A program made the translations under genes and the position numbers. Below are positions 16,323 through 46,121 of a DNA stretch of 48,238 nt, piece by piece (the first letter of the stretch is position 1; every line of letters starts with the position of its first letter). Origin of the DNA: Thermomicrobiales bacterium. GTDB lineage: Bacteria > Chloroflexota > Chloroflexia > Thermomicrobiales > UBA6265. The notes beneath the pieces were generated by a model. That model did no database searches. It was not told the DNA's origin and worked only from the letters and a program-made list of their open reading frames with translations. Where the stretch lies: the NCBI GenBank assembly GCA_020432165.1, contig JAGQGU010000051.1:1-48238 (forward strand). The letters run 5' to 3'.

Positions 16323-16448
16323 CAGCGCAGCGGGGGAGAAGTAGCAGGCTTTGGGCCATTCGATGGTTGGTATGGGGATCCATCATCGATAGACGGCTCA
16401 AGCGACTGTCACCTCTCCCACAGCCAGCGCAAGAGGGTACGATTTGGT

Positions 16449-19237: not shown

Positions 19238-19260
19238 TCAACACACAGGAGAGAAACGAT

Positions 19261-19298: not shown

Positions 19299-19303
19299 AT
19301 GCC

Positions 19304-20224: not shown

Positions 20225-20244
20225 GTCTCTCGTACCCGTCTTGA

Positions 20245-20358: not shown

Positions 20359-20407
20359 TAGATGGTCTCCTTCACAGCAGATTCTGCACTGATTGTAGCG
20401 GCAATCC

Positions 20408-20725
20408 CTAAGGTCGTGGGGATGTAGCGGTGAGTCCAAGCGGGAAAAGCACGACAACAGCGATCATGAGGATGTCCACCATGGTCAATGGCCCGAGGAT
20501 CGTCGTGCCAAATCCCGGGACACGCCCCAGAGCATCGGTAATGAACGCTGTCGAGCCAAAGACAACCCTACCGATCCAGACACGATCAGTAACACCCAGC
20601 AACATCATGATCAACCGCACGACCGTGATCGTGGCGCCAACGGCATAGACAAAGAGAATGACTTCCAGTGCCACGCGGTTACGCGCTTCTGTTTCACGTC
20701 GACGTTGCTGCGGATGCTGGATCAT
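20408..20725 (-). CDS. YggT-like small membrane protein
   Basis: This 105-residue protein has a charged N-terminus and two or three hydrophobic segments (about 20-44 and 78-98). They are joined by VWIGRVVFGSTAFITDALGR, which resembles the YggT-family linker between its helices. YggT proteins occur near cell division and cell-wall genes, but their role is unsettled. Its ATG overlaps the coaBC stop as ATGA, so translation is probably coupled. Family assignment is tentative because the sequence is short. Confidence 0.55.
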   Translation of the reverse strand: MIQHPQQRRRETEARNRVALEVILFVYAVGATITVVRLIMMLLGVTDRVWIGRVVFGSTAFITDALGRVPGFGTTILGPLTMVDILMIAVVVLFPLGLTATSPRP

Positions 20726-22987: not shown

Positions 22988-22993
22988 ATCCCT

Positions 22994-24301: not shown

Positions 24302-24393
24302 CCGAAACGTACAGCGCGTCGAGACACTGTACATATGATAGTACGGTTGCGGCACATGAGATGCTCTGCGATGCTGACAGCGGAGGAGATGCA

Positions 24394-28171: not shown

Positions 28172-28207
28172 CCATCTTCACCCCGGTTGGGTTCATGATC
28201 TCCGGGA

Positions 28208-28213
28208 ATTATA
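28208..28213 (-). promoter_or_regulatory. -10 element before the two-component genes
   Basis: On the minus strand a perfect TATAAT lies between hemE and the response regulator gene, about 37 bases before the TTG start. No clear -35 is seen. It would let the two-component pair be transcribed apart from the heme genes. Confidence 0.5.
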
Positions 28214-28231
28214 GGATACTGGTTGGTGCCC

Positions 28232-30237: not shown

Positions 30238-31934
30238 GATGCAGGTTCTTCTCCCCCGAAATAGCGGGTCAATGTAGCTACGATGCCGGTTGATGTCGAC
30301 GTATCCGCTGTCGCGTGGACAGGTAGATTGTGCTCGACCATCGCGCGGGCAGTGGTGGGACCAATAGCGACCATGGCGGCACCACTGAGCGCAGGCAGAT
30401 CAATACCGATGAGCGCAACGAAGGCTGCGACTGAGCTGGGTGATGCGAAGGTGACCGCATCCATTTCGCCTCGCGCAATCCGCGCACGTAGATCAGGGTC
30501 GATCGTGGTAACCGGATGATTCACATAGCCGATCAATGATGTTACCGTCACACCCGTTGCGGCCAGCGCCTCCGCCAGTTCGGGCCGGGCGATATCGCTA
30601 CCGACATGAACGACCCGTTTGCCAGCGATACCGCTCGCGATGATCTCTTCGGCAAGCACCTCGCCGCCGGGCCCTTCCGCAATCAACAAGGGTTCGACTC
30701 CGGCTTCCCGCAACGCATTGGCCGTTGCCTCGCCAACGATGGCGACAGGAACCTCCGTGCTGCTCCAATCAACCGATGGCACCGCATGTTTGCTGGTGAG
30801 AACAACGAGGTCGGCATCAGGTTGGATTACGACGTATTGAGTCGCGATCTCAATAGTAGGTAAAGAGTACGTCTCAGCTCCGAGCGGTTCTAACCTCGTT
30901 CTCTGGTTCGCGATGATGCTCTCGGAACCCGTCACCAAAATACGGCGATCCTTGAGAGGTTCCCCGAGCGAAACGCCAGACCATTCCGGAGCCACAGTGC
31001 GCATCATCTGATCCGCGACGATAAAGGCACGGTCCTGCGCCTGGCCTGCTGGCCACTCGGCGTAAAAGTGCTCTACCCGCGAGCCGTCATCGGCACCGAG
31101 CATCGCCCAAAACCGGATGGTAGCTATGCCATGCATCTTCTCGATGAGCGCATGCGCACCGATAGGCGTCGAACAACCGCCACCAACGCCACGCAGGAAG
31201 GCACGCTCAGCCATAACGGCCGTGCGAATAGCCGGATCGTCCAACAATGCCGCTGCCTCCCAGGCGGGGGTACCGGTCATAGCTTCGACGGCGAGTGCAC
31301 CCTGTCCTGGCGCCGGGCAACTGACATCTATGGGGAGAAATTCTGTGATCTGGTCATCCCAACCCATACGCTTGAGACCAGCTGCGGCCAGAATCACGGC
31401 ATCGTAGTCATCGGAGAGACCCTTTTTCAGTCGGGTATCGATATTACCGCGGAGTTCATGGATGATCGCGTCTGGTCGCACCTGCTGGATCTGAACGGCG
31501 CGACGACGACTACTGGTACCGATAACCGGGTTCGGAGGTAATACCTCCAGGCCGGCACCATGTCTGCTGATCAGGGCATCACGAGCATCCTCGCGTTGGG
31601 GGAAAGCAGCGATAGCGATACCGTACGGAGCCAGGCTAGGGAGATCCTTGGTCGAATGCACGGCCAAATCGATGTTGCCCGCCAGCATCTGCTGCTGAAG
31701 CGCAGAGGTGAAAACGCCCCGACCGCCGATCTGGCGCAAGGAACTGTGCTTGTCGAGATCGCCCTCGGGCTTGATGATGACGAGTTCCGAATCGATACCG
31801 CGAGCGGTAAGCAGATCCTGCACGGTCGTCGCTTGCCACAGCGCCAGGGCACTACCGCGCGTGCCGATACGAAGAGGTTGTGAAAGAGGAAGAGACACGT
31901 ATGCTCCCGATGCTGGTGGGATACGACGCGGCAT
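30234..31934 (-). CDS. hemCD: Fused porphobilinogen deaminase / uroporphyrinogen III synthase
   Basis: This 566-residue fusion carries out two consecutive steps. The N-terminal about 310 residues are HemC (LRIGTRGSALALWQA, HSTKDLP, GTSSRRRAVQ, LRGNIDTRL, APGQGALAVE) with the dipyrromethane-cofactor Cys in GGGCSTPIGAHA. From about residue 325 comes HemD (RRILVTGSES, VVLTSKHAV, VAIVGEATANAL, VTFASPSSVAAF, MVAIGPTTARAM). HemD itself is poorly conserved in all bacteria, so the fold is inferred from these strands and the fusion order. ATG 31934 is preferred, with GAGGAAG about ten bases upstream; a TTG at 31952 is the other in-frame option. First gene of the heme operon. Confidence 0.95.
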   Translation of the reverse strand: MPRRIPPASGAYVSLPLSQPLRIGTRGSALALWQATTVQDLLTARGIDSELVIIKPEGDLDKHSSLRQIGGRGVFTSALQQQMLAGNIDLAVHSTKDLPSLAPYGIAIAAFPQREDARDALISRHGAGLEVLPPNPVIGTSSRRRAVQIQQVRPDAIIHELRGNIDTRLKKGLSDDYDAVILAAAGLKRMGWDDQITEFLPIDVSCPAPGQGALAVEAMTGTPAWEAAALLDDPAIRTAVMAERAFLRGVGGGCSTPIGAHALIEKMHGIATIRFWAMLGADDGSRVEHFYAEWPAGQAQDRAFIVADQMMRTVAPEWSGVSLGEPLKDRRILVTGSESIIANQRTRLEPLGAETYSLPTIEIATQYVVIQPDADLVVLTSKHAVPSVDWSSTEVPVAIVGEATANALREAGVEPLLIAEGPGGEVLAEEIIASGIAGKRVVHVGSDIARPELAEALAATGVTVTSLIGYVNHPVTTIDPDLRARIARGEMDAVTFASPSSVAAFVALIGIDLPALSGAAMVAIGPTTARAMVEHNLPVHATADTSTSTGIVATLTRYFGGEEPAS

Positions 31935-32020
31935 TGCGTCGTGCTTCCTCAAGTCTATCGAGCGAGACGAGGTGGGGCAACGGTAATCGCTGTTGGATAC
32001 GAATCCGGGGCAACAGAGTC

Positions 32021-32048
32021 TAGACGTTTACAGAAGTGCTGCTATAAA
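32021..32048 (+). promoter_or_regulatory. Promoter of the Pro/Thr-rich anchored protein
   Basis: -35 TAGACG (32021-32026), a 16-base spacer and -10 TATAAA (32043-32048), with TGC before it as an extended -10, lie 46 bases before the ATG at 32094 and just after the divergent hemCD start region. Confidence 0.5.
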
Positions 32049-32093
32049 ATCGGAATCACACAATTCATAAGTCGCTGGCATCAGGAGCTACCC

Positions 32094-32822
32094 ATGCCTG
32101 AAGAGACTGTAAACAACGAGCAAACAAGTTTCTGGGATCGCCTTAGAGGTTTCACTTCTCATCCCGCAATCGCTCCAGCGATTACCGCTGGAATCCTGGC
32201 CTGCTGCGGATTCCTTTATACCCAGGTACGCGGTAGCGACTCTGGACCAGAGACAACTTCTGCTGTCGTCTCTGAGGTCAGTCCGACTTCCACCGCGACG
32301 GCGACAGCGACAATGGAACCTTCCCCTACGCCCACAAACACTCCGCCCCCAACACCAACTCCCACCGTCGAATCTAGCGACGTGGTCACGGGCACTACTA
32401 ACGATCAATCAGGTGGTGCTGACGACTGTGGAGCACCTCCTGGTGGGTGTCCAGATCCTACACCCACATATTCCGTAGGGACAGACAACCCCAAGCCTCC
32501 GGGGCAAACTGTTTACGTTGTAGAAGCGCTCGATGCGAGTGGTCATGCCTCGGGTGTCGATATCAACATAGGGTACACGCACGGCACCGATTCTCTGGAT
32601 GTCTGGATCCAAACGTCGCCTGAGAATCTGGCTAACATCAAGTACGTTCAATACTCAAGTGAACCCCAAGCCGACTGGATTCCATGGACGACTGATGATG
32701 CAGATAGCGGCTTTAGGATGCATATCAGCAATCCAGGTGAGGGTTGGAATCTCGTCACGACGATATTTCTCATCAATGGCTCCTCAATTGAGGGTAGGTT
32801 TGAAGTCAATCTCTCACCATAG
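32094..32822 (+). CDS. Membrane-anchored protein with Pro/Thr linker, unknown function
   Basis: This 242-residue protein has a short charged N-terminus, one membrane helix (about 24-45), a Ser/Thr/Pro-rich linker (TNTPPPTPTPT) and a C-terminal extracytoplasmic domain of about 100 residues. That domain is rich in aromatic, Gly and Asp residues (VYVVEALDASG, LDVWIQTSPENL, GEGWNLVTTIFLINGSS) and probably all-beta. A small GGADDCGAPPGGCPDP loop holds two Cys residues. I recognise no named family. ATG 32094 follows GGAGC at suitable spacing. Codon use is somewhat more AT-tolerant than in neighbours, which could mean recent acquisition or weak expression. It sits alone between the heme operon and rplU. 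Confidence 0.7.
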   Translation: MPEETVNNEQTSFWDRLRGFTSHPAIAPAITAGILACCGFLYTQVRGSDSGPETTSAVVSEVSPTSTATATATMEPSPTPTNTPPPTPTPTVESSDVVTGTTNDQSGGADDCGAPPGGCPDPTPTYSVGTDNPKPPGQTVYVVEALDASGHASGVDINIGYTHGTDSLDVWIQTSPENLANIKYVQYSSEPQADWIPWTTDDADSGFRMHISNPGEGWNLVTTIFLINGSSIEGRFEVNLSP

Positions 32823-32929
32823 TGATCCTTCTGCCGTTCAATAACTTTATAGATCCAGCGATTTACCCAACCTGCTGGACAGGTCATTAACAGACAGGCT
32901 TGGGCTAGAACACTGGTAATCCACACGTG

Positions 32930-33096
32930 TGCTATACTCAGGTGTCTCGAGCGCACATGCGCTCGCTTTTGCGTGCATCACTGCGGCAATGTGATTGGAT
33001 TCTGGCGAGCAAACGGATATCGACGGTAGATGATCGATATCGGCCATGGATCGAGAGTTTGAACGCAGATGCGAAATAAGGGCAGGTAGTAGATAC
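32930..33096 (+). promoter_or_regulatory. rplU promoter and structured leader
   Basis: TGC with TATACT (32930-32938) is an extended -10. Almost at the expected transcript start, arms CGAGCGC (32948-32954) and GCGCTCG (32959-32965) form a hairpin with loop ACAT followed by CTTTTG, resembling a small attenuator. Further on, GATATCGA (33016-33023) and TCGATATC (33034-33041) form a second inverted repeat. The leader is about 150 nt long. Ribosomal protein operons often have autoregulatory leaders (an L21 leader RNA is known in Firmicutes); I cannot tell whether this is related. Confidence 0.5.
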
Positions 33097-33423
33097 ATGA
33101 GCGAAGCGACGAAGTATGCCGTCATCGAAACCGGCGGCAAGCAGTATCGCGTTTCCGAGGGTGATCGCATCACCGTCGAGCGTCTCGCAGCCGAAGAGGG
33201 TGCGGATATCACCATCGATCGCGTGCTGCTGATCGGTGGAGATGGTGCCACCAAGATCGGTACCCCGGTTGTGGATGGCGCCAGCGTGACGGCCACGGTT
33301 ACCGAGCACAAGCGCGGTCCGAAGATTGAAGTCTTCAAGTTCAAGGCCAAGAAGCGCTATCGCCGCCACACTGGCCACCGTCAAGAGCAGACCCGACTGA
33401 CGATCACCGGCATCAAGGGCTAA
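33097..33423 (+). CDS. rplU: 50S ribosomal protein L21
   Basis: This 108-residue large-subunit protein shows the L21 signature: [17 protein letters not shown] at the N-terminus, [33 protein letters not shown] and [10 protein letters not shown]. It binds 23S rRNA near L20. ATG 33097 is chosen because the L21 fold begins there; an ATG at 33046 in frame would add 17 non-conserved residues. It heads rplU-rpmA-rpmE. Confidence 0.97.
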
Positions 33424-33455
33424 TCGTTCGGCTGTATCCGAGAGAGGACAACACA

Positions 33456-33779
33456 ATGGCACATAAGAAAGGTGCGGGTTCAACTCGCAACGGCCGCGAT
33501 TCACAGGCCCAGCGACTCGGCGTTAAGCGCGCCGACGGTCAGTTCGTGCGCACTGGCACCATCGTGGTGCGTCAGCGTGGCACGCAGTTCTGGGTCGGCA
33601 ACAATGTCGGCATCGGCAAGGATCACACGATCTACGCGATGATCGATGGTGTGGTTCGCTTCGAGACCATTGGTCGCCAGAAGCAGCGCATTAGCGTTTA
33701 TCCGCCCGATGTTTACCCGATTGGCGGCGCCAAGGAACTGATCGCGGATGCGGCCAGCACCGAAGCTGCTGCTGACTAG
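33456..33779 (+). CDS. rpmA: 50S ribosomal protein L27
   Basis: This 107-residue protein begins [16 protein letters not shown], the flexible N-terminus that reaches the peptidyl-transferase centre, followed by [27 protein letters not shown] and [14 protein letters not shown]. An acidic/alanine tail of about 20 residues ([14 protein letters not shown]) extends beyond the usual end. No N-terminal cleavage sequence of the Firmicutes type is present. GAGAGGA precedes the ATG. It follows rplU by 32 bases. Confidence 0.97.
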
Positions 33780-33814
33780 ACCTGGCTTACCCCAGTACAA
33801 CGGAGAAATCACCC

Positions 33815-34300
33815 ATGAAGCCGGGAATTCACCCGAATTACGTTGAGACCACAGTCATTTGCAGCTGTGGCAACACCTTCACCACCCGCGGCACCAAGCC
33901 GGAGCTGCGTATCGACCTCTGCAACGTTTGCCACCCGTTCTACACCGGTGAGCAGCGCATTGTGGACACCGCTGGCCAGGTTGAGCGCTTCACCAAGCGC
34001 ATGGAAGCCGCTGCCGCCAATGTTGGTAGCAAGACCAAGAAGCAGAAGCGTGCCGAAGAGGCCGCTGCTCTCCGCGCCCAGAAGGATGCGGAAGCCGCCG
34101 CTGTTCGTGAGGCTGCTGCCAAGGAAGAGCGTGCCAAGGCTCGCGCCGAGCGCGAGAAGCGCGAAGCCGAAGCTGCTGCCAAGGCCGAGCGTCAGGCTGC
34201 TGCCGAAGCCGCCAAGGCCGAGGCTGAAGCCGCCGCTGCTGAGACTGCAGAGGCCGAAGTCGAAGCTGTGGATGAGGCTGTCGCCGAAACCGCAGAGTAA
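33815..34300 (+). CDS. rpmE: 50S ribosomal protein L31 with long charged C-terminal extension
   Basis: The first about 70 residues are a normal zinc-binding (C+) L31: [20 protein letters not shown] with C16 and C18, then [11 protein letters not shown] with C36 and C39, and VERFTKRM. Typical L31 stops near residue 70-80, but this one continues to 161. The extra 85-90 residues consist almost entirely of Ala, Glu, Lys and Arg and should form one long helix or coiled coil, with an acidic end. The extension keeps the frame and codon style and ends before a strong terminator, so it is not a sequencing run-on. It is last in rplU-rpmA-rpmE. Confidence 0.93.
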
Positions 34301-34313
34301 TATCGCAATTCAG

Positions 34314-34350
34314 GAGGCCTCGGGCGAGTTGATCGCCCGAGGCCTCTTTG
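34314..34350 (+). terminator. Rho-independent terminator after rpmE
   Basis: The arms GAGGCCTCGGGCGA (34314-34327) and TCGCCCGAGGCCTC (34333-34346) give a 14-base-pair stem with a five-base loop, followed by TTTG. It ends the rplU-rpmA-rpmE transcript directly before the repeat array. Confidence 0.85.
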
Positions 34351-34850
34351 TCATTCCGAAGCCACAGGCGAGGAATCAGTCGAACGATTGGTAGTCAGGC
34401 CATTGGCCTATTACGTCGATCGTGCCTTGATTTCGCTCAGAGCTCGGGATGGCGATGACACCCCCCCACGCCCCCAGGGATAAACCCTGGGGCTACGTTC
34501 GAGCCTTGTCATTCCGATGCCACAGGCGAGGAATCAGTTAAACGATTGGTAGCATAGCCAATGGCCTAATACGTCAATCGTCCCTTGATTTCGCTCGGGG
34601 CTCGGGATAGCGATAATACCCACGCCCCCAGGGATAAACCCTGGGGCTACGTTCGAGCCTTGTCATTCCGATGCCGCAGGAGAGGAATCAACCGAACGAT
34701 TGGGGGTCTGGTCAATGACCTAATACGTCACTCGTGCCGTGATTCCGCTCAAGGCTTGGGATGGCGATAACACCCTCACGCCCCCCAGGGATAAACCCTG
34801 GGGCTACGTTCGAGTCTTGTCATTCCGAAGCCCCAAACGAGGAATCAACG
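34351..34850. repeat. Tandem array of three ~157-base units plus a partial fourth
   Basis: Units start at 34351, 34509 and 34663 (lengths 158, 154 and 157), and a truncated fourth begins at 34820. Each starts with TCATTCCGA, then GAGGAATCA about 19 bases on (an imperfect inverted repeat). A small dyad follows in the middle (AGGCCA and TGGCCT around T in unit 1). The unit ends in a strong stem-loop with arms CCCCAGGG and CCCTGGGG around ATAAA (34472-34492, 34626-34646, 34783-34803) and the conserved GGCTACGTTCGAG. The gap 34301-34911 has no gene; 34851-34911 shows nothing further. It is not CRISPR: there are no short repeats with unique spacers. Confidence 0.85.
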
Positions 34851-34911
34851 GTACGCCAGTTCAGTCGACTACAAGGGTCGACGCTACGGATATCGTTGCT
34901 GCAGAACGCTG

Positions 34912-35382
34912 TTAATCGTCCAGGCTGAAAAGTGCCAGAGGTGTATTTGCCCGGCTCGGTGGTGATGCAGGTTCTTCGAGGAAGGTTGCCTGCTTCAGGC
35001 TGTGCTCCTCATGATGGAGAAAGCGGACGTAGCGCATCACCTGCTCCTGGCCGGAGGCAGACATATCGCGAAAAAGTTGCAACATCCGTCGCTCCTCCTC
35101 CGATTCCTTGGGGATTAGCGCCTTATCGATGAGGCCGCTGGCCTTCATCAGATCCGAACGCGAGGCTCCGAGGGCGCCAGCAAGCTTGTCCAGCGTGTTG
35201 AGGCTGGGCTCGCTGCCCCGGCCGCGCTCGATATCGCAGACATAGCTTCGGCTTAGCCCGGCGGCATCGGCCAACTCGCGCTGACTCAATCCCTGCTGCT
35301 GCCGTGTCTGTCGCACCCAAATACCAAGGAGTGATCCTACAGTCGGGGCTTTCGATTTTGCGTCGGTGGTCGCCACCATGTC
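34912..35382 (-). CDS. XRE-family transcriptional regulator
   Basis: This 156-residue protein has a cro/C1-type HTH in its middle (about 20-80): GIWVRQTRQQQGLSQRELAD, AAGLSRSYVCDIERGRG, PSLNTLDKLAGALG. A C-terminal helical part follows (SEEERRMLQLFRDM, QEQVMRYVRFLHHEE) that may mediate dimerisation, and then a disordered tail. No ligand-binding domain is recognisable. ATG 35382 has AGGATG about six bases upstream and puts a short tail before the HTH; longer in-frame starts would extend across the divergent promoter. It is divergent from the PfkB-like gene and may control it or itself. Confidence 0.82.
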   Translation of the reverse strand, partial: DMVATTDAKSKAPTVGSLLGIWVRQTRQQQGLSQRELADAAGLSRSYVCDIERGRGSEPSLNTLDKLAGALGASRSDLMKASGLIDKALIPKESEEERRMLQLFRDMSASGQEQVMRYVRFLHHEEHSLKQATFLEEPASPPSRANTPLALFSLDD

Positions 35383-35503
35383 CACATCCTGACGAGCTAT
35401 GCTCACATCTGCTATCAGCATACGACAGAATGGACGTTTGCGCCGTACCATTTCTCCACATTTTCGCGGCAAAATGACGCGCAGGCCGTACATACACCCA
35501 TGG

Positions 35504-35540
35504 ATGACATTGTCTCCCCTACTCTTCATAATTGGGGACA
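35504..35540 (+). promoter_or_regulatory. Promoter with overlapping inverted repeat before the PfkB-like gene
   Basis: -35 ATGACA (35504-35509), a 17-base spacer and -10 CATAAT (35527-35532) match the consensus at five of six positions each. An inverted repeat, TGTCTCCCC (35511-35519) and GGGGACA (35534-35540), brackets the -10 and would occlude RNA polymerase if bound. The divergent XRE gene is the obvious candidate regulator; that link is inference. Confidence 0.55.
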
Positions 35541-35581
35541 TGACATCGGCGAGGAAGCCGATGACCAACAGTGGGTGAAAC

Positions 35582-36364
35582 ATGAGCAAGCGTTACGCGA
35601 TTATCGGCGATATCGTAGCCGAGGACTTCGGTGAATCGATTCATCCTGGCGCGGCCGGTGCGATCGCGCTATCGCTGCGCGATCTCGGCGGTGAAGTAAC
35701 GCTGCGCAGCTGCATCGGTGATGACGATGCTGGCACTGAGGTGCTGCAGCACCTCAAGGCTGCCCGGATTCACCCGAAGAATATCGATGTCATCGAAGGC
35801 AATACCTGCGCGCTTGTTCGCCATGAGGATGGCAGTTTCACTGATTGGCAACAGGGTGCGCTTATGACCAAGGGTGGCGTGATGGATATCTACGCGCTTT
35901 TCGGTCACGATGCGTTGGTGCTGGATTTGCTGGATCAATCGCTGCGCCATTTCCTCACCGATCTCCCCGCTCATACCGATGGCACCGTGCGCATGGCCAC
36001 GACATTGCGTCATCTGGATCATATTCCGGCTCAGGCTAATGAACTGGAAATCGCGATGCGCTGCGACACGATTATCGGCACCGAGGAACAGTACACAAAA
36101 ATGACTGGACTACCCTCGGCCAGTGAGGCACTCGGGGAGATCTTCGCGCAAATGCCATTTGCGGCATTACGCGCAGCCATCGCGATCACACCCGATGGAT
36201 TGCAATGTGTCGCGCGTGATAGCCGCATCATCAAACCGGTGCAGGATGCGATCCCGAATCTGTTGGCCCCGCGGGTCGCGGCGGCCGTGGCCTGGGGGAT
36301 GGCACATCACGCCGATTGGGATGTGGTGCTGAATGTCGCACTCGATGCCGATACCGCTCAGTAG
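35582..36364 (+). CDS. PfkB-fold sugar/nucleoside kinase-like protein, active site degenerate
   Basis: This 260-residue protein has a recognisable ribokinase/PfkB N-terminal half: IIGDIVAEDF, the PGAAGAIALSLRDLGGEVTLRSCIGDDDAG block, and a VLDLL-type strand. The C-terminal half has IIGTEEQYTKMTG (as in DxxxxNExE regions) and AITPDGLQCVARD. The universal catalytic GAGD motif, expected before the last helix, is missing: the region reads DAIPNLLAPRVAAAVAWGMAHH. It is also shorter than the usual 300-320 residues. It may be a non-catalytic sugar-binding relative or a broken kinase. ATG 35582 starts MSKRYAIIGD. It ends two bases before queG. Confidence 0.7.
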   Translation: MSKRYAIIGDIVAEDFGESIHPGAAGAIALSLRDLGGEVTLRSCIGDDDAGTEVLQHLKAARIHPKNIDVIEGNTCALVRHEDGSFTDWQQGALMTKGGVMDIYALFGHDALVLDLLDQSLRHFLTDLPAHTDGTVRMATTLRHLDHIPAQANELEIAMRCDTIIGTEEQYTKMTGLPSASEALGEIFAQMPFAALRAAIAITPDGLQCVARDSRIIKPVQDAIPNLLAPRVAAAVAWGMAHHADWDVVLNVALDADTAQ

Positions 36365-36366
36365 AG

Positions 36367-37527
36367 ATGGAACCAATCACGCTTAGTCCGCCAGATGCAC
36401 GCAAGCAACTCGCCGCACAGGTGAAGATGTTGGCTGCACGTAACGGCTTGAGCGTCAGCGCTATCACCTCGGCCGAGCCATTTCCGGAGCTCGCCGGCTT
36501 TATGGAGCGCCATATCGAAGCTGGCCATGTGGAGGGAATGGACTGGTTCACGGTGGATCGGGCCCGCTTCAGCACCGATGTGCGCAATCTGCATCCGCAT
36601 GCAAAATCGGTTATCAGCGTCGGACTCGCCTATTGGAGCGGTCCGGCGGAGAAACCGGATGATGTCCCGCGCGGGCGGATCAGCCGCTATGCCTGGGGTC
36701 GGGATTACCATCGCACCCTGAAGCGACGTCTCAAGGGATTGCAAGCTGATCTGGAGGAGCTGGCCGGACGTTCTCTCGATACGCGCATCCTGGTGGACAC
36801 CGCTCGTATCGTCGAGCGCGCTGTGGCGGCAAGAGCCGGACTCGGTTGGTATGGCAAAAATGCCAATCTGATTGTGCCGGGGCATGGTAGCTGGGTGATG
36901 CTTGGCGAACTCGTAACTGATCTCGATATCGCTCCGGATATCCCATCGGAGAAGAACTGCGGCAAGTGCACGATCTGTATCGATAACTGCCCCACACACG
37001 CAATTGTGGAACCCTATACGATTCACGCGCCCCATTGCATCAGTTATCTGACCATTGAGGAACGTGGTCCGATTCCGCACGAGTTACGACCGTTGATGCA
37101 GGACTGGGTCTATGGCTGCGATGTTTGCCAGGAGGTGTGCCCATATACCGGTGCCGCCAAAGTGGTAGACGAAACCGATATGCAACCAGCATCCATCAGC
37201 AACCAATTCCCATGTTTGCACTGGCTGCTGCGGATGACCGATGAGGAGTTTGGACAGACCTACTTTGGTACACCAGTGCCGAGGACGAAACGACGTGGGT
37301 TGGCACGCAATGCCGCGATTGCGCTGGGGAATATCGGCACAGAAGCGGATATCCCGGTGCTTGCATTGACGCTACGGGAACACGACGAGCCGATCGTGCG
37401 CGGTCACGCCGCCTGGGCGTTGGGTCGGTTAGGTGCCGCAGCTGAGATACGCGCCTGCACGCAAACAGAGTCCGACGAGTACGTGCGACAGGAAATCGAC
37501 CTGGCGCTGACGAATCCAGCCAGATAG
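36367..37527 (+). CDS. queG: Epoxyqueuosine reductase
   Basis: This cobalamin- and iron-sulfur-dependent enzyme reduces epoxyqueuosine to queuosine in tRNA. The 386 residues have the catalytic-domain segments YAWGRDYHRTLKRRL, ARAGLGWYGKNANLIVP and GSWVMLGELVTDL. Two [4Fe-4S] clusters are visible: NCGKCTICIDNCPTHAI, and CDVCQEVCPYTGAA with an adjacent HCISYLTIEERG. A C-terminal HEAT-like part (RNAAIALGNIG, HAAWALGRLG) follows, as in QueG. ATG 36367 (MEPIT) is chosen because it follows the PfkB-like stop by two bases; a longer start lies inside that gene. A convergent terminator follows. Confidence 0.95.
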   Translation: MEPITLSPPDARKQLAAQVKMLAARNGLSVSAITSAEPFPELAGFMERHIEAGHVEGMDWFTVDRARFSTDVRNLHPHAKSVISVGLAYWSGPAEKPDDVPRGRISRYAWGRDYHRTLKRRLKGLQADLEELAGRSLDTRILVDTARIVERAVAARAGLGWYGKNANLIVPGHGSWVMLGELVTDLDIAPDIPSEKNCGKCTICIDNCPTHAIVEPYTIHAPHCISYLTIEERGPIPHELRPLMQDWVYGCDVCQEVCPYTGAAKVVDETDMQPASISNQFPCLHWLLRMTDEEFGQTYFGTPVPRTKRRGLARNAAIALGNIGTEADIPVLALTLREHDEPIVRGHAAWALGRLGAAAEIRACTQTESDEYVRQEIDLALTNPAR

Positions 37528-37529
37528 CA

Positions 37530-37567
37530 AACGACCGACGAGAAGTGATCCTCGCCGGTCGTTCTTT
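37530..37567. terminator. Bidirectional terminator between queG and rpmB
   Basis: AACGACCG (37530-37537) pairs with CGGTCGTT (37556-37563), with an inner CGAG/CTCG helix after a one-base mismatch, then CTTT. It lies between convergent genes. Confidence 0.75.
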
Positions 37568-37587
37568 CGTCTGATGATTTCCGCGAA

Positions 37588-37782
37588 CTAGGCGGCCTTA
37601 CCGGCCTTGCCCAGACTGCGCTGGCAACGGGTGCAGATATTCAGGCGAATACCAATACCGTTCACCACAATGCGCTTCTTGTGCACATTGGCGCGAAAAT
37701 CGCGGCTGGTGCGGCGCTTGGAGAAGCTCACGTTGTTACCAAAGGTCTTGGCCTTGCCGCAGACATCACACTTACCGGACAT
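37588..37782 (-). CDS. rpmB: 50S ribosomal protein L28
   Basis: This 64-residue L28 is of the zinc-binding kind. MSGKCDVCGKAKTFGNNVSFS carries the first CxxC and LNICTRCQRSL the second, with KRRTSRDFRANVHKKRI between. Length is normal. GGGAG stands eight bases before the ATG. It is monocistronic and convergent with queG. It is often found near a Gls24/FakA cluster in other bacteria, as it is here on the opposite strand. Confidence 0.96.
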   Translation of the reverse strand: MSGKCDVCGKAKTFGNNVSFSKRRTSRDFRANVHKKRIVVNGIGIRLNICTRCQRSLGKAGKAA

Positions 37783-37985
37783 GAAATGCTCCCTTCACAC
37801 TTCGCGACGATCCGGGAACAGAACGACCGGAGGCGTGCGTACATTAATGCTCATGAATCAGGTGGGGTGCGCAGGCGCACCACGATATCGCCACACGCGG
37901 GGCGACACAACGCTGAATGCTACCACGAAGGCAGGAGAGGTGCCAAGGAGATTTCAGGAACGTTCAGGCATCAGCCGCTTGCGCT

Positions 37986-38006
37986 CCCCGTGGATAAACC
38001 ACGGGG
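37986..38006. repeat. Distant covarying copy of the array stem-loop
   Basis: The arms CCCCGTGG (37986-37993) and CCACGGGG (37999-38006) enclose ATAAA, the same loop as in the array at 34472-34803. Two base pairs differ and both keep pairing. The following bases (GGCCACCTCC, CTTGTCA) also resemble the array's GGCTACGTTC, CTTGTCA. The rest of the 374-base gap 37783-38156 shows an inverted repeat GGTGCGC/GCGCACC at 37866-37881 and the -10 box before the Gls24 gene, but no gene. Confidence 0.7.
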
Positions 38007-38094
38007 CCACCTCCAACCCTTGTCAGATGCTCGGTGACCTATCCAGCAATGATGATGGTGGGGCAAATCGCATAACGACTATGGTCAAAATGTT

Positions 38095-38100
38095 TATAAT
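38095..38100 (+). promoter_or_regulatory. -10 element before the Gls24/fakA/fakB genes
   Basis: A perfect TATAAT lies about 57 bases before the Gls24-family GTG start; at 17 bases upstream only ATAACG (three of six matches) is found as -35. Confidence 0.45.
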
Positions 38101-38156
38101 TCTTGAAACTGTCAACTTCGTCGAGCATGCAGCGTGTGCACGAAAGGAGCATTATC

Positions 38157-38543
38157 GTGCCACCGGTCTCACCTACTGATGATATACCGGAGCCAACCGG
38201 TCGAGTCGAAATTGCCGAGAGCGCTATCGTTGCTGTCATTCATGAAACAGTGCTCTCATGCTATGGCGTGGTGGAACTTGGTCCCAATAATCGTTCCGCG
38301 CTGGTCCGGCGTTTGCGCCGAAATGATCCCTCGCGCGGTATCGAGATCAGTGTTACCGACGATCATCTGGAGATTGAGCTCAGCATCGTGGCCGAATATG
38401 GCACTCCTATCTTCACGGTCGCGCAAAATGTGATGCAGGCCATCAAGTTCCAGGTTGAAAACACACTGAATATGACCGTCGACCGCGTCAATGTGAATGT
38501 CGATGGCATTCGCGTGAGCCCAGCAGCCGAGAAGACCGCATGA
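38157..38543 (+). CDS. Asp23/Gls24 (YloU) family envelope-stress protein
   Basis: This 128-residue protein belongs to the Asp23/Gls24 family. Marks include GRVEIAESAIVAVIHETVLSCYGV, the basic ALVRRLRRND, ISVTDDHLEIELSIVAEYG and the C-terminal VNVNVDGIRV. In Firmicutes YloU stands next to rpmB and yloV (fakA), exactly as here. Its role is not well defined; Asp23 relatives are membrane-associated and linked to alkaline or envelope stress. GTG 38157 is chosen because AAGGAG lies eight bases upstream; an ATG at 38103 has no site. Its stop overlaps the fakA start as ATGA. Confidence 0.9.
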   Translation: MPPVSPTDDIPEPTGRVEIAESAIVAVIHETVLSCYGVVELGPNNRSALVRRLRRNDPSRGIEISVTDDHLEIELSIVAEYGTPIFTVAQNVMQAIKFQVENTLNMTVDRVNVNVDGIRVSPAAEKTA

Positions 38544-40231
38544 CCAACGCCACCCCCCGCACGACCACTGGCCACGCTACCTGGAATGGCGAGCAACTGC
38601 TGGAGGCGATCACCTTTGCTGCCCGACTCCTCGGTCACCATCGCGACCGGGTCAACGCGCTTAACGTCTTCCCGATCCCGGATGGTGATACCGGTACCAA
38701 TATGTCGCTAACGATGAACAGCAGTCTGGATTTCGCAATAAAGGCGAATGCGACAGACACTGCCGGACATCTGGCCGATCGCTTTGCCTATGGCGCGCTC
38801 ATGGGTGCCCGTGGCAACAGCGGTGTGATCCTCAGCCAAATCTGGCGAGGATTCGCTGACGGGCTGGCAGGTTGCGACACGATCAACGGCGATGACCTCG
38901 TACGCGCCCTCGATTCCGCGCGGGTAAAAGCGTACAAGGCGGTGATGCGGCCCGTGGAAGGCACCATGCTTACCGTCATCCGCGTCGCTGCCGAGGACGC
39001 AGTCAAGGGGGGTACGGGTCGAGCCCTCACGGATGTGCTTGCGACCGCACTCGATGGCGCCGGGCGCGCACTGGCAGAAACACCAGAGATGCTGGAGATT
39101 CTCAGGCAGGCGGGTGTGGTCGATGCCGGTGGCCAGGGTGTGGTCTATCTTCTGGATGGCCTCTATCGCTATGCACTCGGGAACACGACGATCGACGAGG
39201 ATAGCACCAGCGCTCAGATCGGTGCCGAAATGGATTTTCTGGACAATGTCGCGGAACTCCACGGTGAGGATCCCTTCGGCTATTGCACCAACTTTATGGT
39301 CTTCGGCGAAGGGATCGACTTCGAGAAAGCCCGCGAGACCCTGAACGACATGGGTCAGTCAATGGTCGCCGTTGGCGATGACACGGTGCTGAAAGTGCAC
39401 ATTCATGCCGAGAATCCAGGCGAGGTTCTGGCTTATGCGCTGACACTGGGCTATCTCGATCAGATCAAGATCGACAACATGACACTGCAGACTGAGGCGC
39501 TCAAGGAGCAGCGCACAGATCATGCATCGGATCGTCCTTCGTGGGCAGGATCAGACATCCCGACTGAGATTCATGGCGATATCGGCGTCATTGCGGTCGC
39601 CGCGGGGGAAGGTTTGGCGCAAGCCCTACTCTCCATGGGCGCCAATCTGATCGTGATGGGCGGACAAACAATGAACCCCAGCACCGAGGATCTGCTCTCC
39701 GCCGTAGAAGCACTACCCGTCAATCAGGTCATCATTCTGCCCAACAACAAAAACATCATTTTGGCCGCACAACAGGTAACTGAACTCAGCGACAAAGAGG
39801 TGCGCGTGGTACCGAGCAAGTCGCTCCCTCACGGGTTAGCAGCGTTGGGGCGCTTCGGGTTCGATGAGAGTATCGATGAGAATGTCGCGGAAATGACGGC
39901 TGCCCTCATGGATGTGCGCTGTGTAGAGATCACGACAGCGGTTCGCGATGTCGAACTCAACGGTGTCGATGTCAAGGAAGGCCAGCTTATCGGTTTGGTG
40001 GATGGCGATCTCGTGGCCAGTGGCGACGACTTGCCAGAAATCGTTAGCGCGGCTTTTGCGGCTTTGGGCGATGTTGAACCAGAATTGTTGACAGTTTTCA
40101 CCGGGGAAGATGCAAACGACACGGAATCCGAAGCGCTGGAGGAAGCCGCCAGTGCACTTTATCCGGATGCCGAAATCGAGATCATCGCGGGCAATCAACC
40201 ACACTACCACTTTGTGATTGCCGTAGAGTAA
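38540..40231 (+). CDS. fakA: Fatty acid kinase subunit FakA (DhaL-domain protein)
   Basis: FakA phosphorylates fatty acids held by FakB, feeding exogenous acyl chains into phospholipid synthesis. This 563-residue protein has an N-terminal DhaL nucleotide-binding domain with NVFPIPDGDTGTNM (magnesium Asp residues), GARGNSGVILSQIWRGF, RPVEGTMLTVIR and GVVDAGGQGVVYLLDG. The middle and C-terminal FakA domains follow (GYCTNFMV, VHIHAENPGEVL, and VIILPNNKNIILAAQQ near the C-terminal third). It is followed by two fakB genes, which completes the kinase system. ATGA overlap with the Gls24 gene suggests coupled translation. Confidence 0.93.
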   Translation: MTNATPRTTTGHATWNGEQLLEAITFAARLLGHHRDRVNALNVFPIPDGDTGTNMSLTMNSSLDFAIKANATDTAGHLADRFAYGALMGARGNSGVILSQIWRGFADGLAGCDTINGDDLVRALDSARVKAYKAVMRPVEGTMLTVIRVAAEDAVKGGTGRALTDVLATALDGAGRALAETPEMLEILRQAGVVDAGGQGVVYLLDGLYRYALGNTTIDEDSTSAQIGAEMDFLDNVAELHGEDPFGYCTNFMVFGEGIDFEKARETLNDMGQSMVAVGDDTVLKVHIHAENPGEVLAYALTLGYLDQIKIDNMTLQTEALKEQRTDHASDRPSWAGSDIPTEIHGDIGVIAVAAGEGLAQALLSMGANLIVMGGQTMNPSTEDLLSAVEALPVNQVIILPNNKNIILAAQQVTELSDKEVRVVPSKSLPHGLAALGRFGFDESIDENVAEMTAALMDVRCVEITTAVRDVELNGVDVKEGQLIGLVDGDLVASGDDLPEIVSAAFAALGDVEPELLTVFTGEDANDTESEALEEAASALYPDAEIEIIAGNQPHYHFVIAVE

Positions 40232-40261
40232 GGCATCGCCATCGACGCCACTGGAGGAATC

Positions 40262-41125
40262 GTGAACACGAACGCAACCGTCGCCATCGTCACTGACAGC
40301 ACGTGTGACATCGATAAAGAACTCGCGCAAGATCGTCGCATTACGGTAGTGCCGCTAAATGTCCACTTCGGTGAAGAAGTTTTCGCCGATCAGGTCACCA
40401 TCAGTACCGATGAGTTCATGGAGAAGATGTCTACTTCCGCGGCTCTACCGACAACCAGTCAACCATCGGTAGGTGCATTCGAGCGCGCCTTTCGCGAGGC
40501 AGCTGCTGCGCAAAACACAAAAGAGATTGTCTGTGTGACGCTCTCCTCCAAATTGAGTGGTACATTCCAAAGCGCTTCCATCGCTGCACAGAATCTCGCT
40601 GATGAACTTCATGTGGAAGTCGTCGACTCGTTCAGTGTCAGCTTTGGCCTTGGTTTTCAGGCATTGCGTGCGGCAGATCTCGCCGGGCAAGGGCTGGATG
40701 CGAGCAAGATTGCCGCGATCCTGCGCGGAGAAGTTGGCCGCTACCATATCGTCTTCTTCGCCGACACGTTGGAGCATCTTCGACGTGGAGGACGCATCGG
40801 CAAGGCCGCGCAGCTAGTCGGCACGCTTCTGCAACTTAAGCCGCTCCTGCGCATTGATGAAGGGGTGATTGTTCCTTTCGAACGTACTCGCACTCGCTCC
40901 AAGGCGATCAAGGCACTGGAGACATTCGTCAATGAAACCGGGGCTATCGATGAGTTGGCGGTGATGTACAACACTACCCCCGATGATGCCCGGGCGCTTG
41001 CAGATGTTCTCCAGCCAAAAACACCGGGGCACCCCATCACGCTCACCAAGGTGAGTCCGGTTATCGCCACGCATATCGGCCCGGGCGTGCTCGGTGTGAT
41101 CGTTAAGGAGCACATCAGTGAGTAG
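40262..41125 (+). CDS. fakB: DegV family fatty-acid-binding protein (FakB), first copy
   Basis: This 287-residue DegV-fold protein presents a fatty acid to FakA. Visible marks are the N-terminal AIVTDSTCDI, SQPSVGAFERAF, the ligand-site VTLSSKLSGTFQSA, a mid-protein VVDSFSVSFGLGF, RRGGRIGKAAQLVGTLLQLKPLL and the C-terminal THIGPGVLGVI. GTG 40262 has GGAGG upstream, 30 bases after fakA. The next copy overlaps by eight bases, so the two FakB proteins are made together. Confidence 0.92.
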   Translation: MNTNATVAIVTDSTCDIDKELAQDRRITVVPLNVHFGEEVFADQVTISTDEFMEKMSTSAALPTTSQPSVGAFERAFREAAAAQNTKEIVCVTLSSKLSGTFQSASIAAQNLADELHVEVVDSFSVSFGLGFQALRAADLAGQGLDASKIAAILRGEVGRYHIVFFADTLEHLRRGGRIGKAAQLVGTLLQLKPLLRIDEGVIVPFERTRTRSKAIKALETFVNETGAIDELAVMYNTTPDDARALADVLQPKTPGHPITLTKVSPVIATHIGPGVLGVIVKEHISE

Positions 41126-41963
41126 TACACGTCGCGTTCGGGTCGTTACCGATAGCGCCTCCGATATTCCCCTGCACGTGCGGGAGGAACTTGGTATTCG
41201 CGTGGTGCCGCTCTCGCTGAACTTCGAAAACGAATCCCTGCTGGATACGATCGATATCAACGCCCAGCAGTATCTTGATCGCTTGCGAGCGGACGCCAAA
41301 CTGCCGAGTACCGCGCAACCATCGGTCGATCAGTTTGTGCAGGTTTTCCAGCAGGAACTCGATGCCGATCTGGATGTCGTCTGCTTCACGCTCTCCGCCG
41401 GACTCAGCGGCACCTATAACGCCGCGCGACTGGCTGCCGAGCAAATTGACTCGAAACGGCTCTATGTTGTCGATTCTCGCGGTGCCACCATGCAGCAGGG
41501 CTGGACAGTCATTGAGGCAGCACGCTGGGCCGAAGGCGGGGCCTCGGCTCTGGAAGTGATCGCCGTCGGCGAAGCCGCCATCCCCAAGTGCTTCACCTTT
41601 GCCGTGCTGCAAACGCTCGACTACGTCCATAAGGGTGGACGCATCGGTCGTGTCGGCCATCTCGTCGGATCGGCCCTGGGGGTAAAGCCGGTGGTCGGCT
41701 TTGCCGATGGTGTGCTGGTACCATATGAACGGGTTCGCACCTGGAAGAAAGCGCTGAAGCGCGCCATTGAGTTGGCATCTTCCAAAGGCAATGCCCTCGA
41801 TATTGCGGTTCTCCATGCGGATAACCTCGCGGATGCGCGCATGGTCGAGGCAGAGTTGCGGACAATCTTTCCGAATGCGAACTACCTTGTCGATTGGGCA
41901 GGGCCAACCATTACCACCTACGCCGGACCAGGTGCTATTGGCATCATGATTCGGGTCGCCTAA
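41118..41963 (+). CDS. fakB: DegV family fatty-acid-binding protein (FakB), second copy
   Basis: This 281-residue paralogue of the preceding protein has RVVTDSASDIP, STAQPSVDQFVQVF, the ligand loop FTLSAGLSGTYNAAR, VVDSRGATMQQGW, HKGGRIGRVGHLVGSALGVKPVV and TYAGPGAIGIM. GTG 41118 lies inside the end of the first copy, with AAGGAG about eight bases before it. The two copies differ clearly in the binding-site loop, which fits distinct acyl-chain preferences as known for multiple FakB proteins in other bacteria. recG begins four bases after its stop. Confidence 0.92.
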   Translation: MSSTRRVRVVTDSASDIPLHVREELGIRVVPLSLNFENESLLDTIDINAQQYLDRLRADAKLPSTAQPSVDQFVQVFQQELDADLDVVCFTLSAGLSGTYNAARLAAEQIDSKRLYVVDSRGATMQQGWTVIEAARWAEGGASALEVIAVGEAAIPKCFTFAVLQTLDYVHKGGRIGRVGHLVGSALGVKPVVGFADGVLVPYERVRTWKKALKRAIELASSKGNALDIAVLHADNLADARMVEAELRTIFPNANYLVDWAGPTITTYAGPGAIGIMIRVA

Positions 41964-41967
41964 TGCC

Positions 41968-44421
41968 GTGCCATCAACGCGTTCTACAGGTTCAACCAGG
42001 CACATCAGTGCCGCGATAGATGCACTCCGTCAGGTATGGCGGGGTGGTACTGACGCTGGCCGTGAACTGGTGAACGCGATCGATCACATCGAAGCAGCAC
42101 GCGCCGGAGCACCCTATCAGATCGTCGCCGAGCTGAATGCTCTCGCGGCAGCGGTACGCACTCTCCCCAAAGAGAGCGAAGCCCGCAAGCGCAGCATCCA
42201 GACCGTGGCCGAAGAGCTCAAGAAGCTGGGTGCGGATATGGTCGCTTCCACCCAGCCTCCTGTCGAGAAAGGCAAACTCACCAGCGCGCTGGTGCCTCAG
42301 AAGCGAGCAAGCACCAGCGCGGGCCCGCGAGGGGTCACCCCCGTGTCACCGACAGACGTGCTCAGCGCATTACCCGGGATCGGCAGCAAAAAGCTCAAAC
42401 CATTCAACGAAGGTCTACACCTCTTTACCGTGCAAGATCTGCTGCAGTTCCTACCCCGCAAACACATCGATTACTCTCGCAGCGCCAATTTGAGCGATCC
42501 TTTACAGATGCGGGGTGATATCGTGGTGCAGGGCACGCTTAACAATATCCAGGTCATCCGCACGGGGACACCACGGGTTCAGGCCAGACTCTCCAATGAA
42601 ACCGGCACGATTCGTATCACCTGGTTCAGCACCTATATCCAGAATCAACTACATGAGGGCAATCGTATTATCGTCGCGGGCGCGCTTTCACCAGGCCATG
42701 GCGGGTTGCAACTCACCAATCCGGAATGGGAATTTGTGGGTGCTGGCAGTGTTTTTCAAAGCGATGCACTCGTGCCGATCTATCCGCTGACCAAGGGCAT
42801 TAGCCAGAAGATGATGCGGCAGCACACGCGCAATGCGCTGGATGCCACGAGAGAGCGACTCATCGATTGGCTCGGTGATGCCCGCCCTTATATCGATGAC
42901 GATGTCTGGGAGTTCCTCCCCGATATCGCCACGATGTATGAGCACATTCACTATCCACCGCATGTAGACGACTACGTTAAGGCTCGCAAACGCCTCACAT
43001 TCGAGAACCTGCTCTTGCTGCAGCTCGGCATGGTGCAAACACGCGTCAAGGCGAAGGCGGAAGAGGGTCGAGCACTGACGGTGAATCGGGATGATCTGGA
43101 AGTATTCATCACTACCCTTCCCTTCACGCTCACGCGCGCCCAACGCAGGGTTATGGCCGAGATGATGGGCGATCTCACGCAGGCAGCGCCGATGACGCGT
43201 TTGGTGCAGGGTGATGTGGGATCGGGCAAGACAGTTATCGCCGCCATCGGAGCCTGGGTGGCCTGGCACAGCGGAATGCAGACCGCGATCATGGCTCCTA
43301 CCGAGTTGCTTGCCGAGCAGCATGCAGAGACATTCGACCGTCTCTTTGCGGCGCTGCCAGAGGAGAGACGTCCACGTATAGCACTCCTTACCGGCTCAAC
43401 CCGAGCAAAGCAACGGCGAGAGGTGACGGCGGGTCTAGCCTCGGGTGAGATTGATATCGCTATCGGCACCCATGCGCTCTTCAGCGAAGATGTGGAGTTC
43501 AGCGCGCTCGGTTTTGTGGTCATCGATGAGCAGCACCGCTTCGGTGTGAACCAACGCACGGCGCTCACGAAAAAGGCGCACGGATACCAACCTCACCTTC
43601 TTTCGATGACAGCCACCCCGATCCCACGCACACTCAATCTGGTGCTCCATGGCGATCTGGATGTGAGCATCATTGATGAACGCCCCCCCGGTCGGATTCC
43701 CATCAGCACATTTAGCTACGTGGGACCAGATCGCGTGAAAGCGTACCAACTCGTCCGGCATGAGGTGCAGAAGGGTCATCAGATCTTCGTCATCTGTCCG
43801 TTGGTGAACGAATCGGACACTATTGTGGCAAAGGCTGCGGTCGAGGAGGCAGAGCGGCTGCAGCATGAAGTCTTCCCGGATTTGCGGGTGGATGTATTGC
43901 ACGGCAAGATGAGCGGCAAACAAAAAGATGAGATCATGACGAGATTTCGGGAGAAGGAGTTCGATATTCTCGTCAGCACATCAGTGATCGAGGTCGGTAT
44001 CGATATCCCGAACGCGACGGTGATCATGATCGAGGGCGCGGAACGATTTGGTCTGGCGCAACTCCATCAGTTTCGAGGCCGGGTAGGTCGTGGTCAGCAT
44101 GATAGCTATTGTTTGTTGCTGGCCGATAAAGTGACGCCCGAAGCCAAGGAACGTTTACAGGCCGTACAGGATACAACTAACGGTTTTGAACTGGCCGAGT
44201 CGGATTTGAAGATGCGTGGGCCGGGTGAATTTTTTGGGACGCGTCAGAGCGGACTGCCCGATTTGAAATTGGTGCAACTTACCGACGTTAAGCTGTTGGA
44301 GTTGGCCCGAGAGGAAGCCCAAATTATCTTTGAAAATGATAAAAGTTTAGAGCAACCACAACACCGGCTGTTGGCGCGACAGGTAGAAAATTTTTGGAAA
44401 AACAAGAGTGATTTAAGCTAA
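41968..44421 (+). CDS. recG: ATP-dependent DNA helicase RecG
   Basis: RecG remodels stalled replication forks and Holliday junctions. This 817-residue protein has about 110 extra N-terminal residues, then the wedge/OB domain (GIGSKKLKPFNEGLHLFTVQDLLQFLPRKH in outline), and the helicase motifs: Walker A QGDVGSGKT, MAPTELLAEQH, DEQHRFGVNQR, MTATPIPRTL, the motif V region STSVIEVGIDIPNA, motif VI HQFRGRVGRG, and the C-terminal GPGEFFGTRQSGLPDLKL. GTG 41968 is the best in-frame start. The last 120 or so codons are written in a more AT-rich style than the rest; frame and motifs are unbroken. Its stop shares one base with the coaD start. Confidence 0.94.
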   Translation: MPSTRSTGSTRHISAAIDALRQVWRGGTDAGRELVNAIDHIEAARAGAPYQIVAELNALAAAVRTLPKESEARKRSIQTVAEELKKLGADMVASTQPPVEKGKLTSALVPQKRASTSAGPRGVTPVSPTDVLSALPGIGSKKLKPFNEGLHLFTVQDLLQFLPRKHIDYSRSANLSDPLQMRGDIVVQGTLNNIQVIRTGTPRVQARLSNETGTIRITWFSTYIQNQLHEGNRIIVAGALSPGHGGLQLTNPEWEFVGAGSVFQSDALVPIYPLTKGISQKMMRQHTRNALDATRERLIDWLGDARPYIDDDVWEFLPDIATMYEHIHYPPHVDDYVKARKRLTFENLLLLQLGMVQTRVKAKAEEGRALTVNRDDLEVFITTLPFTLTRAQRRVMAEMMGDLTQAAPMTRLVQGDVGSGKTVIAAIGAWVAWHSGMQTAIMAPTELLAEQHAETFDRLFAALPEERRPRIALLTGSTRAKQRREVTAGLASGEIDIAIGTHALFSEDVEFSALGFVVIDEQHRFGVNQRTALTKKAHGYQPHLLSMTATPIPRTLNLVLHGDLDVSIIDERPPGRIPISTFSYVGPDRVKAYQLVRHEVQKGHQIFVICPLVNESDTIVAKAAVEEAERLQHEVFPDLRVDVLHGKMSGKQKDEIMTRFREKEFDILVSTSVIEVGIDIPNATVIMIEGAERFGLAQLHQFRGRVGRGQHDSYCLLLADKVTPEAKERLQAVQDTTNGFELAESDLKMRGPGEFFGTRQSGLPDLKLVQLTDVKLLELAREEAQIIFENDKSLEQPQHRLLARQVENFWKNKSDLS

Positions 44422-44900
44422 TGGCTGAAGCAATTTACCCTGCGACGTTTGATCCTATTACCAATGGCCATGTTGAGATCGCCGAACGGGCTGCACAACT
44501 CTTTGATCGGTTAGTCGTAGGTGTCTATGACAAGCCCCTCAAGAATTGGCTCTTTTCTATCGAAGAACGACTGGAAATGACACGGCAAGCGTTGGCTCAT
44601 GTAGATAATGTCGAAATTGAACGGTATGGCGGTTTGACGGTTAATTTTGCTCAAGAGAAAAATGCTAACTATATTGTACGTGGCTTGCGTACGCTTTCTG
44701 ATTTTGAATGGGAATTGCAGTTGTCTCAAGCAAACCACGGTTTAGTGCCGGAAATCGAAACCGTCTGCCTGTTAGCAAGCCAAAAAAACTCTTTCTTGAG
44801 TTCCAGTATTCTCAAAGAAATTGCCCTAAATGAGGGCAAGATTGACCATCTGGCACCGCCGGTAGTGGTCGCGGCCCTGCGCCGTAAACTTGAAATTTAA
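44421..44900 (+). CDS. coaD: Phosphopantetheine adenylyltransferase
   Basis: CoaD adenylylates 4'-phosphopantetheine, the penultimate step of CoA synthesis. The 159-residue protein shows IYPATFDPITNGHVEIAERA with the nucleotidyl-transferase TxGH-like motif TNGH, GLRTLSDFEWELQLSQAN, and the C-terminal SSSILKEIA. Its ATG shares an A with the recG stop (TAATG). Codon use is AT-rich (many AAT, AAA and TTA codons), unlike coaBC earlier in the window, so the two CoA enzymes may not come from the same genome if the contig is chimeric. Confidence 0.95.
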   Translation: MAEAIYPATFDPITNGHVEIAERAAQLFDRLVVGVYDKPLKNWLFSIEERLEMTRQALAHVDNVEIERYGGLTVNFAQEKNANYIVRGLRTLSDFEWELQLSQANHGLVPEIETVCLLASQKNSFLSSSILKEIALNEGKIDHLAPPVVVAALRRKLEI

Positions 44901-44935: not shown

Positions 44936-44984
44936 GGGGGCTAATCCCCTTGATACGACAGACTTTTAATGCAAGGTGGGCGTT

Positions 44985-45467
44985 ATGGATATTCTTCACC
45001 TGATAGATCGGCTTGAAAATTTAGTCACAGAAAGCTTTCATCTTCCCTTTACCTCAAACGTTATTATTCAGGAAGATGCTTTTCTCGATATTATCGACCA
45101 AATGCGGGTGACCATTCCGGAAGAAGTGAAGCTGGCTAAACGCACTGAAGCCGAACGAGAAAGGCTCATGCTTCAGGCTCAGGAAGAAGCTAACCGGTTA
45201 GTGGATATGGCCCGCGAAAAGGCTAAAGCCTTGACAGAAGATCACGAGCTGATCACGTTCGCCAAACAACGTGCTCAAGAAATTGAAGCAGAGGCGCACC
45301 GTCAGGCCGAGGAAATTTTAGGCGACACCGATGAATACATCATCGATCAGCTTAGCGAACTTGAGGAACAGCTTATGAAAACGTTGACCACCGTTCGAAA
45401 TGGTTTGCACCATGTTCGCGCCACCCAACCCGATTTAGAGCAGTCACAAGTTGAGGCAGAAAGATAA
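44985..45467 (+). CDS. Coiled-coil protein (DivIVA / F-type b-subunit-like), unknown function
   Basis: This 160-residue protein has an N-terminal about 45 residues (MDILHLIDRLENLVTES and on) followed by a long charged helix rich in Ala, Glu, Lys, Arg and Gln (AKRTEAERERLMLQAQ, AREKAKALTEDHE, AQEIEAEAHRQAEEILGD). This pattern resembles ATP synthase b-type or DivIVA-type coiled coils, and such proteins are conserved beside coaD and yceD in Chloroflexota. No membrane helix is present, so it is not a true ATP synthase b subunit. ATG 44985 follows AAGGTGGG at good spacing; GTG 44976 in frame is closer to it and less likely. Role unknown. Confidence 0.7.
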   Translation: MDILHLIDRLENLVTESFHLPFTSNVIIQEDAFLDIIDQMRVTIPEEVKLAKRTEAERERLMLQAQEEANRLVDMAREKAKALTEDHELITFAKQRAQEIEAEAHRQAEEILGDTDEYIIDQLSELEEQLMKTLTTVRNGLHHVRATQPDLEQSQVEAER

Positions 45468-45529: not shown

Positions 45530-45554
45530 ATACGACTTGTGTGTCAATAAAACT

Positions 45555-46121
45555 ATGTCTACTAAACACGATACTTACGGGTTGCAGTTCAACGTCTCCC
45601 AGTTACTTAAGGAACCAACCGGCGCAACCCGCCATTATGAAATCAATATTCAACCGTTTGGTCAACTCGATGAAGATGTTGCCGTTGTCGCCCCTTTAAC
45701 GGGGGAAATAAAATTTTTACGAACCGGATCGGAAATTTTAGTTCAAGGTATTTTACAAACAATTGTTGAAAAAAATTGCGGTCGATGCTTAGAAGATTTC
45801 AACGCGCCGGTAGTCTTCGATTTAGAGGAACAGTTTTTTCCGACTATCGACGTTAATACCGGAGTTGGTGTGGAAGCGCCTGATGATGCCGACGAAGCCA
45901 ATAGAATTGATGCCCAACATACGTTGGATTTAAGCGAAGTTGTTCGCCAAGGCTTGTTGTTGGAAATCGACAGCGTTCTCTACTGTAAGCCCAATTGTAA
46001 AGGCATCTGCTTGCAGTGTGGTCAAAACCTTAACCTGGCGCAGTGTGACTGTGTCGATGATGTTATCGATGCCCGATGGGCCAGCTTATTGCAAAAATTA
46101 GAAACTGAAGATAAACCATAG
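45555..46121 (+). CDS. yceD: YceD/DUF177 family protein
   Basis: This 188-residue DUF177 protein is the usual partner of rpmF; homologues affect 23S rRNA accumulation in bacteria and plastids. A beta-rich N-terminal half (LTGEIKFLRTGSEILVQG) precedes CGRCLEDF and the Cys-rich end YCKPNCKGICLQCGQNLN then CDCVDD, which likely binds zinc. ATG 45555 has no clear ribosome site and a very short leader, so initiation may be nearly leaderless. rpmF follows by 60 bases. Confidence 0.9.
   Translation: MSTKHDTYGLQFNVSQLLKEPTGATRHYEINIQPFGQLDEDVAVVAPLTGEIKFLRTGSEILVQGILQTIVEKNCGRCLEDFNAPVVFDLEEQFFPTIDVNTGVGVEAPDDADEANRIDAQHTLDLSEVVRQGLLLEIDSVLYCKPNCKGICLQCGQNLNLAQCDCVDDVIDARWASLLQKLETEDKP

Follow-up and report, generated by a model that had tools for sequence, protein, structure and literature searches.

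Does contig C41 belong to one organism along its whole length, given that its GC content falls at a single point, abruptly, within recG? The window analysed here is this entire contig (48,238 bases), one of 105 in a genome of 3.2 Mb (completeness 98.3%, contamination estimate 3.34%). The initial annotation attributed the shift to a conserved motif that had joined two genomes during assembly, or else to homologous recombination or transfer of a housekeeping block. The segments and genes concerned are listed below, with identities to a comparison genome of the same genus (G003) or to the Anaerolineae MAG Bin_81R (L042).

1..44044: genuine host segment, 57.2% GC, assigned by collinearity with G003 for 24100-44069 and by even composition only for 1-24099
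41968..44043, plus strand: host recG 5' part, residues 1-692, 77% identity to G003
44045..44069, plus strand: junction, the exact 25-mer GATTTGGTCTGGCGCAACTCCATCA, equal to C10 bases 1-25, one assembler word, encoding RFGLAQLHQ
44070..44421, plus strand: foreign recG 3' end, Anaerolineae-like, 77% to L042 and 45% to G003
44421..44900, plus strand: foreign coaD (pantetheine-phosphate adenylyltransferase), 70% to L042
44976..45467, plus strand: foreign coiled-coil-looking ORF, 74% to L042, DivIVA-like by position and look only
45537..46121, plus strand: foreign yceD (PF02620), 53% to L042
46182..46385, plus strand: foreign rpmF (ribosomal protein L32), 74% to L042
46448..47395, plus strand: foreign fabD, 69% to L042
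47402..48151, plus strand: foreign fabG, 81% to L042

GC content is 57.2% in 1-44044 versus 46.7% in 44070-48238. The best likelihood change point lies at 44261, with positions no more than 10 units from the maximum spanning 43653-44392, and its likelihood ratio is 170 versus a maximum of 96 among 2000 shuffles of 500-base blocks (0/2000 as strong). In the genes checked, third-position GC is 0.61-0.69 on the left versus 0.42-0.50 on the right, and by tetranucleotides the right piece lies at a distance of 0.465 from the remaining contig, compared with 0.135-0.187 for each of the 20 equally long left pieces. The G+C counts made by hand in the initial annotation (69/120 in 43981-44100, 22/60 in 44641-44700 and 27/60 in 44281-44340) are exact, the right side is indeed AT-richer up to the window end (46.7% GC across 44070-48238), and the GC, tetranucleotide and codon statistics that it had proposed to compare on each side all shift, third-position GC and tetranucleotides included. 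Its description of the edge as not sharp holds for composition alone, which blurs the edge, but at the level of single bases the edge is sharp, as homology places it at the 25-mer 44045-44069.

The encoded RecG protein changes affinity along its length. Its residues 1-692 share 77% identity with G003 and 42% with L042; for residues 700-817 the values are 45% and 77%, respectively. Identity to G003 is 0.50-0.60 in the variable first 120 residues and 0.70-0.97 at residues 121-720, then drops to 0.53, 0.30 and 0.18, while identity to L042 rises along the protein from 0.17-0.70 to approximately 0.8; the switch falls at residues 681-720. The trees of the N- and C-terminal parts, which the initial annotation had suggested building, disagree, with a different phylogenetic affinity on each side of the join: the window groups with G003 in the N-part tree (SH-aLRT 100) and with L042 in the C-part tree (97), where the RecG end encoded at the start of another contig, C10, groups with G003 (99). 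The window protein nevertheless scores as a full-length RecG (NCBIfam NF008168, TIGR00643; 845.9 bits, cut-off 718). Unlike real RecG, it is an in silico hybrid that any organism is unlikely to make; the 817-aa RecG does not exist in nature.

The join coincides with the start of C10. In a search of the genome against itself, the first 46 bases of C10 proved similar to window 44045-44090, with identity throughout the first 25; allowing up to two mismatches, the 25-mer occurs at only two sites in the genome, the window and the C10 start. Beyond it, DNA identity between window and C10 is approximately 0.5-0.6, dropping to 0.2, and any longer common stretch is absent. The shared word encodes RecG R693 to Q701. 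The initial annotation had placed the beginning of the shift near HQFRGRVGRG; the junction does adjoin this motif, but the shared word lies just upstream, ending in the motif's first two codons. As the annotation stated, the reading frame continues across the join, because both sides are recG and are joined at the same codon. Past base 25, C10 encodes a different recG 3' end (a 129-aa open frame, 84% identical to G003), followed by rsmD, coaD, a coiled-coil-looking ORF, yceD, rpmF, fabH and fabG.

Comparison with G003 decides which of the two continuations belongs to the host. Collinearity was checked for window 24100-44069: positions 24100-37500 are collinear with G003 contig C23 and positions 37552-44069 with G003:C16:400-6813. 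Within the latter, window 38086-44069 matches G003:C16:841-6813; then, abutting, C10:3-17999 matches G003:C16:6791-24861 in pieces, with C10 collinear at 74-77% DNA identity over most of its length. Since both abut on this single contig, the arrangement in the genus is the left part of the window followed by C10, and the GC content of C10 (57.2%) matches that of the left part. C10 is the true continuation of the host, and the organism's real recG runs through window 41968-44069 and on into C10 from base 26.

The length of the shared sequence recurs elsewhere in the assembly. Among 109 ends of 65 readable contigs, all of 3 kb or more, nine end-to-end overlaps are exactly 25 bases and one further pair overlaps by 24; in 12 pairs, the contig ends have exactly 25 bases in common and diverge thereafter. 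Exact sharing of 25 bases at contig ends is the mark of a word-based assembler that used a 25-base word and broke contigs at graph branches. Given that many contig ends share exactly 25 bases, the assembler word length is 25; the recG junction is one word long and C10 starts exactly at it. Terminal 25-mers of other contigs also occur inside contigs of this genome (G000 C8:1761, C37:3346, C67:763 and C55:168). These sites may be additional joins, made between paths that are closely related, and none of the four has a GC step comparable to that of the recG join.

Window 44070-48238 is foreign to this organism; as the window is the entire contig, the foreign piece forms its final 4.2 kb. All genes right of the join follow the L042 order, with protein identities of 53-81%; the ORF at 44976..45467 has no Pfam match. 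Between recG and coaD, rsmD is absent in the window, in L042 and in other Anaerolineae-type loci, and present in relatives from the same family as the window wherever their contigs extend far enough. The collinearity and identities with L042, together with the absence of rsmD at this position, point to a donor among Anaerolineae-like Chloroflexota, one with no close genome in the collections searched. A DNA search for the donor across 158 class genomes yielded nothing beyond short or weak hits (63-73% identity over stretches above 150 bases), and in a scan of named genomes the best relative was Anaerolineae bacterium Bin_81R, at 69% in FabD. Neither the foreign species nor its recG 5' part, which is expected to end in the same 25-mer, was found in the collections searched.

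Judged from sequence comparison, contig C41 is almost certainly an assembly chimera of two genomes. A de Bruijn assembler using words of 25 bases would have reached GATTTGGTCTGGCGCAACTCCATCA in recG, identical in two Chloroflexota of the sample, entering from the side of the host (57% GC) and leaving along the recG of the other organism. Its path would then have run for 4.2 kb into an Anaerolineae-like genome (47% GC) before stopping, leaving the real continuation of the host as the separate contig C10, which opens with the same word. We infer that the assembler's choice of path, rather than biology, made the join. The proposal that a conserved motif had joined two genomes in assembly is thus borne out by the start of C10 with the junction 25-mer, the equality of the junction length with the word length, the un-joined arrangement in G003 and the disagreement between the N- and C-part trees. 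The contamination estimate of 3.34% counts against a chimera as a low figure, yet a foreign piece of this small size would fit such a value. In a mock community, chimeric contigs of two organisms carried their chimeric sequences always at contig ends (PMC8172020), as does C41. As in other inter-genome chimeric contigs of MAGs, the join lies at a short exact repeat in a conserved gene and the true partner contig starts with this repeat. Unlike in the typical case, the two organisms in C41 are not close relatives (their RecG C parts are 44-45% identical), and the common sequence is just one assembler word.

The main competing account is a real event, in which, by homologous recombination or transfer, a block from a distant chloroflexotan, recG(3')-coaD-yceD-rpmF-fabD-fabG, was inserted or took the place of host sequence at this locus, C41 and C10 being two real alleles, perhaps in part of the population. 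The continuity of frame and gene order and the predicted functionality of the block would fit such an event, and a mixed population could also yield two graph paths. However, its border would have to fall by chance on an assembler word that starts another contig, while the same bin kept the ancestral arrangement unbroken, whereas the observed boundary coincides to the base with that contig start and the word length. Recombination would also have had no stretch beyond the 25-mer common to window and C10 to act on, and no host-like sequence follows the block: the contig is still foreign when it ends at 48238, with no second boundary back to host sequence in these 4.2 kb. Host genes are neither missing nor displaced, given that recG 3' end, rsmD, coaD, yceD, rpmF and fabG stand intact in genus order on C10 (fabG at C10:4277-5035, 58% identical to the window fabG) and a fabD lies on C99 (87075-87968, 49% identical to the window fabD). 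With the boundary on a word-length repeat at a contig start and the host copies intact, the recombination or transfer alternative of the initial annotation loses its footing and is very improbable. There is correspondingly only a slim chance that part of the population truly carries a hybrid recG with a fatty-acid/ribosomal block imported from a distant chloroflexotan, alongside the ancestral arrangement of C10.

Two further readings have next to nothing in their favour. An ordinary fluctuation of composition inside one genome, such as a housekeeping block of low GC, could draw on the 500-base blocks left of the join that go down to 49% GC, but the step is reached by none of the block shuffles and the gene trees change affinity where composition does, leaving this reading a negligible probability. 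The reverse assignment, with C10 foreign and the window intact, arises because either path out of the common 25-mer could in principle be the wrong exit; it is vanishingly improbable, as the G003 contig matching the left part is collinear with C10 and not with the right part of the window, and C10, again not the right part, equals the left in GC.

Departures from the genome's composition also occur on other contigs. A low-GC island (approximately 45-51%) on the minus strand of L183 (G000:C50):1748-4000 adjoins a methionyl-tRNA-synthetase-like gene and encodes a defence-associated reverse transcriptase, type RT_UG13b (PADLOC, 363 bits), next to a Schlafen group 3 helicase-domain protein (PF09848). 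On L197 (G000:C64), in the region of approximately 1500-4000, GC drops from approximately 61% to 46% after 1500 bases, which reflects either an island or a second join; the defence library gave no match for a 326-aa ORF there (1526-2506). L236 (G000:C103):1-4000 belongs to an 8.7 kb contig of 65% GC, versus a genome mean of approximately 57%, and is possibly a contaminant or an element.

The chimera in C41 is an ordinary artefact and a matter of data quality only, and one that can be argued from contig ends alone, without reads. As the join happens to lie in frame within the same gene, annotation tools are blind to it. In the public genome, the host recG is divided between two contigs, a non-existent hybrid RecG is encoded, and 4.2 kb of foreign sequence add second copies of coaD, yceD, rpmF, fabD and fabG. 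Since it passes the family cut-off, the hybrid RecG would mislead surveys of gene transfer.
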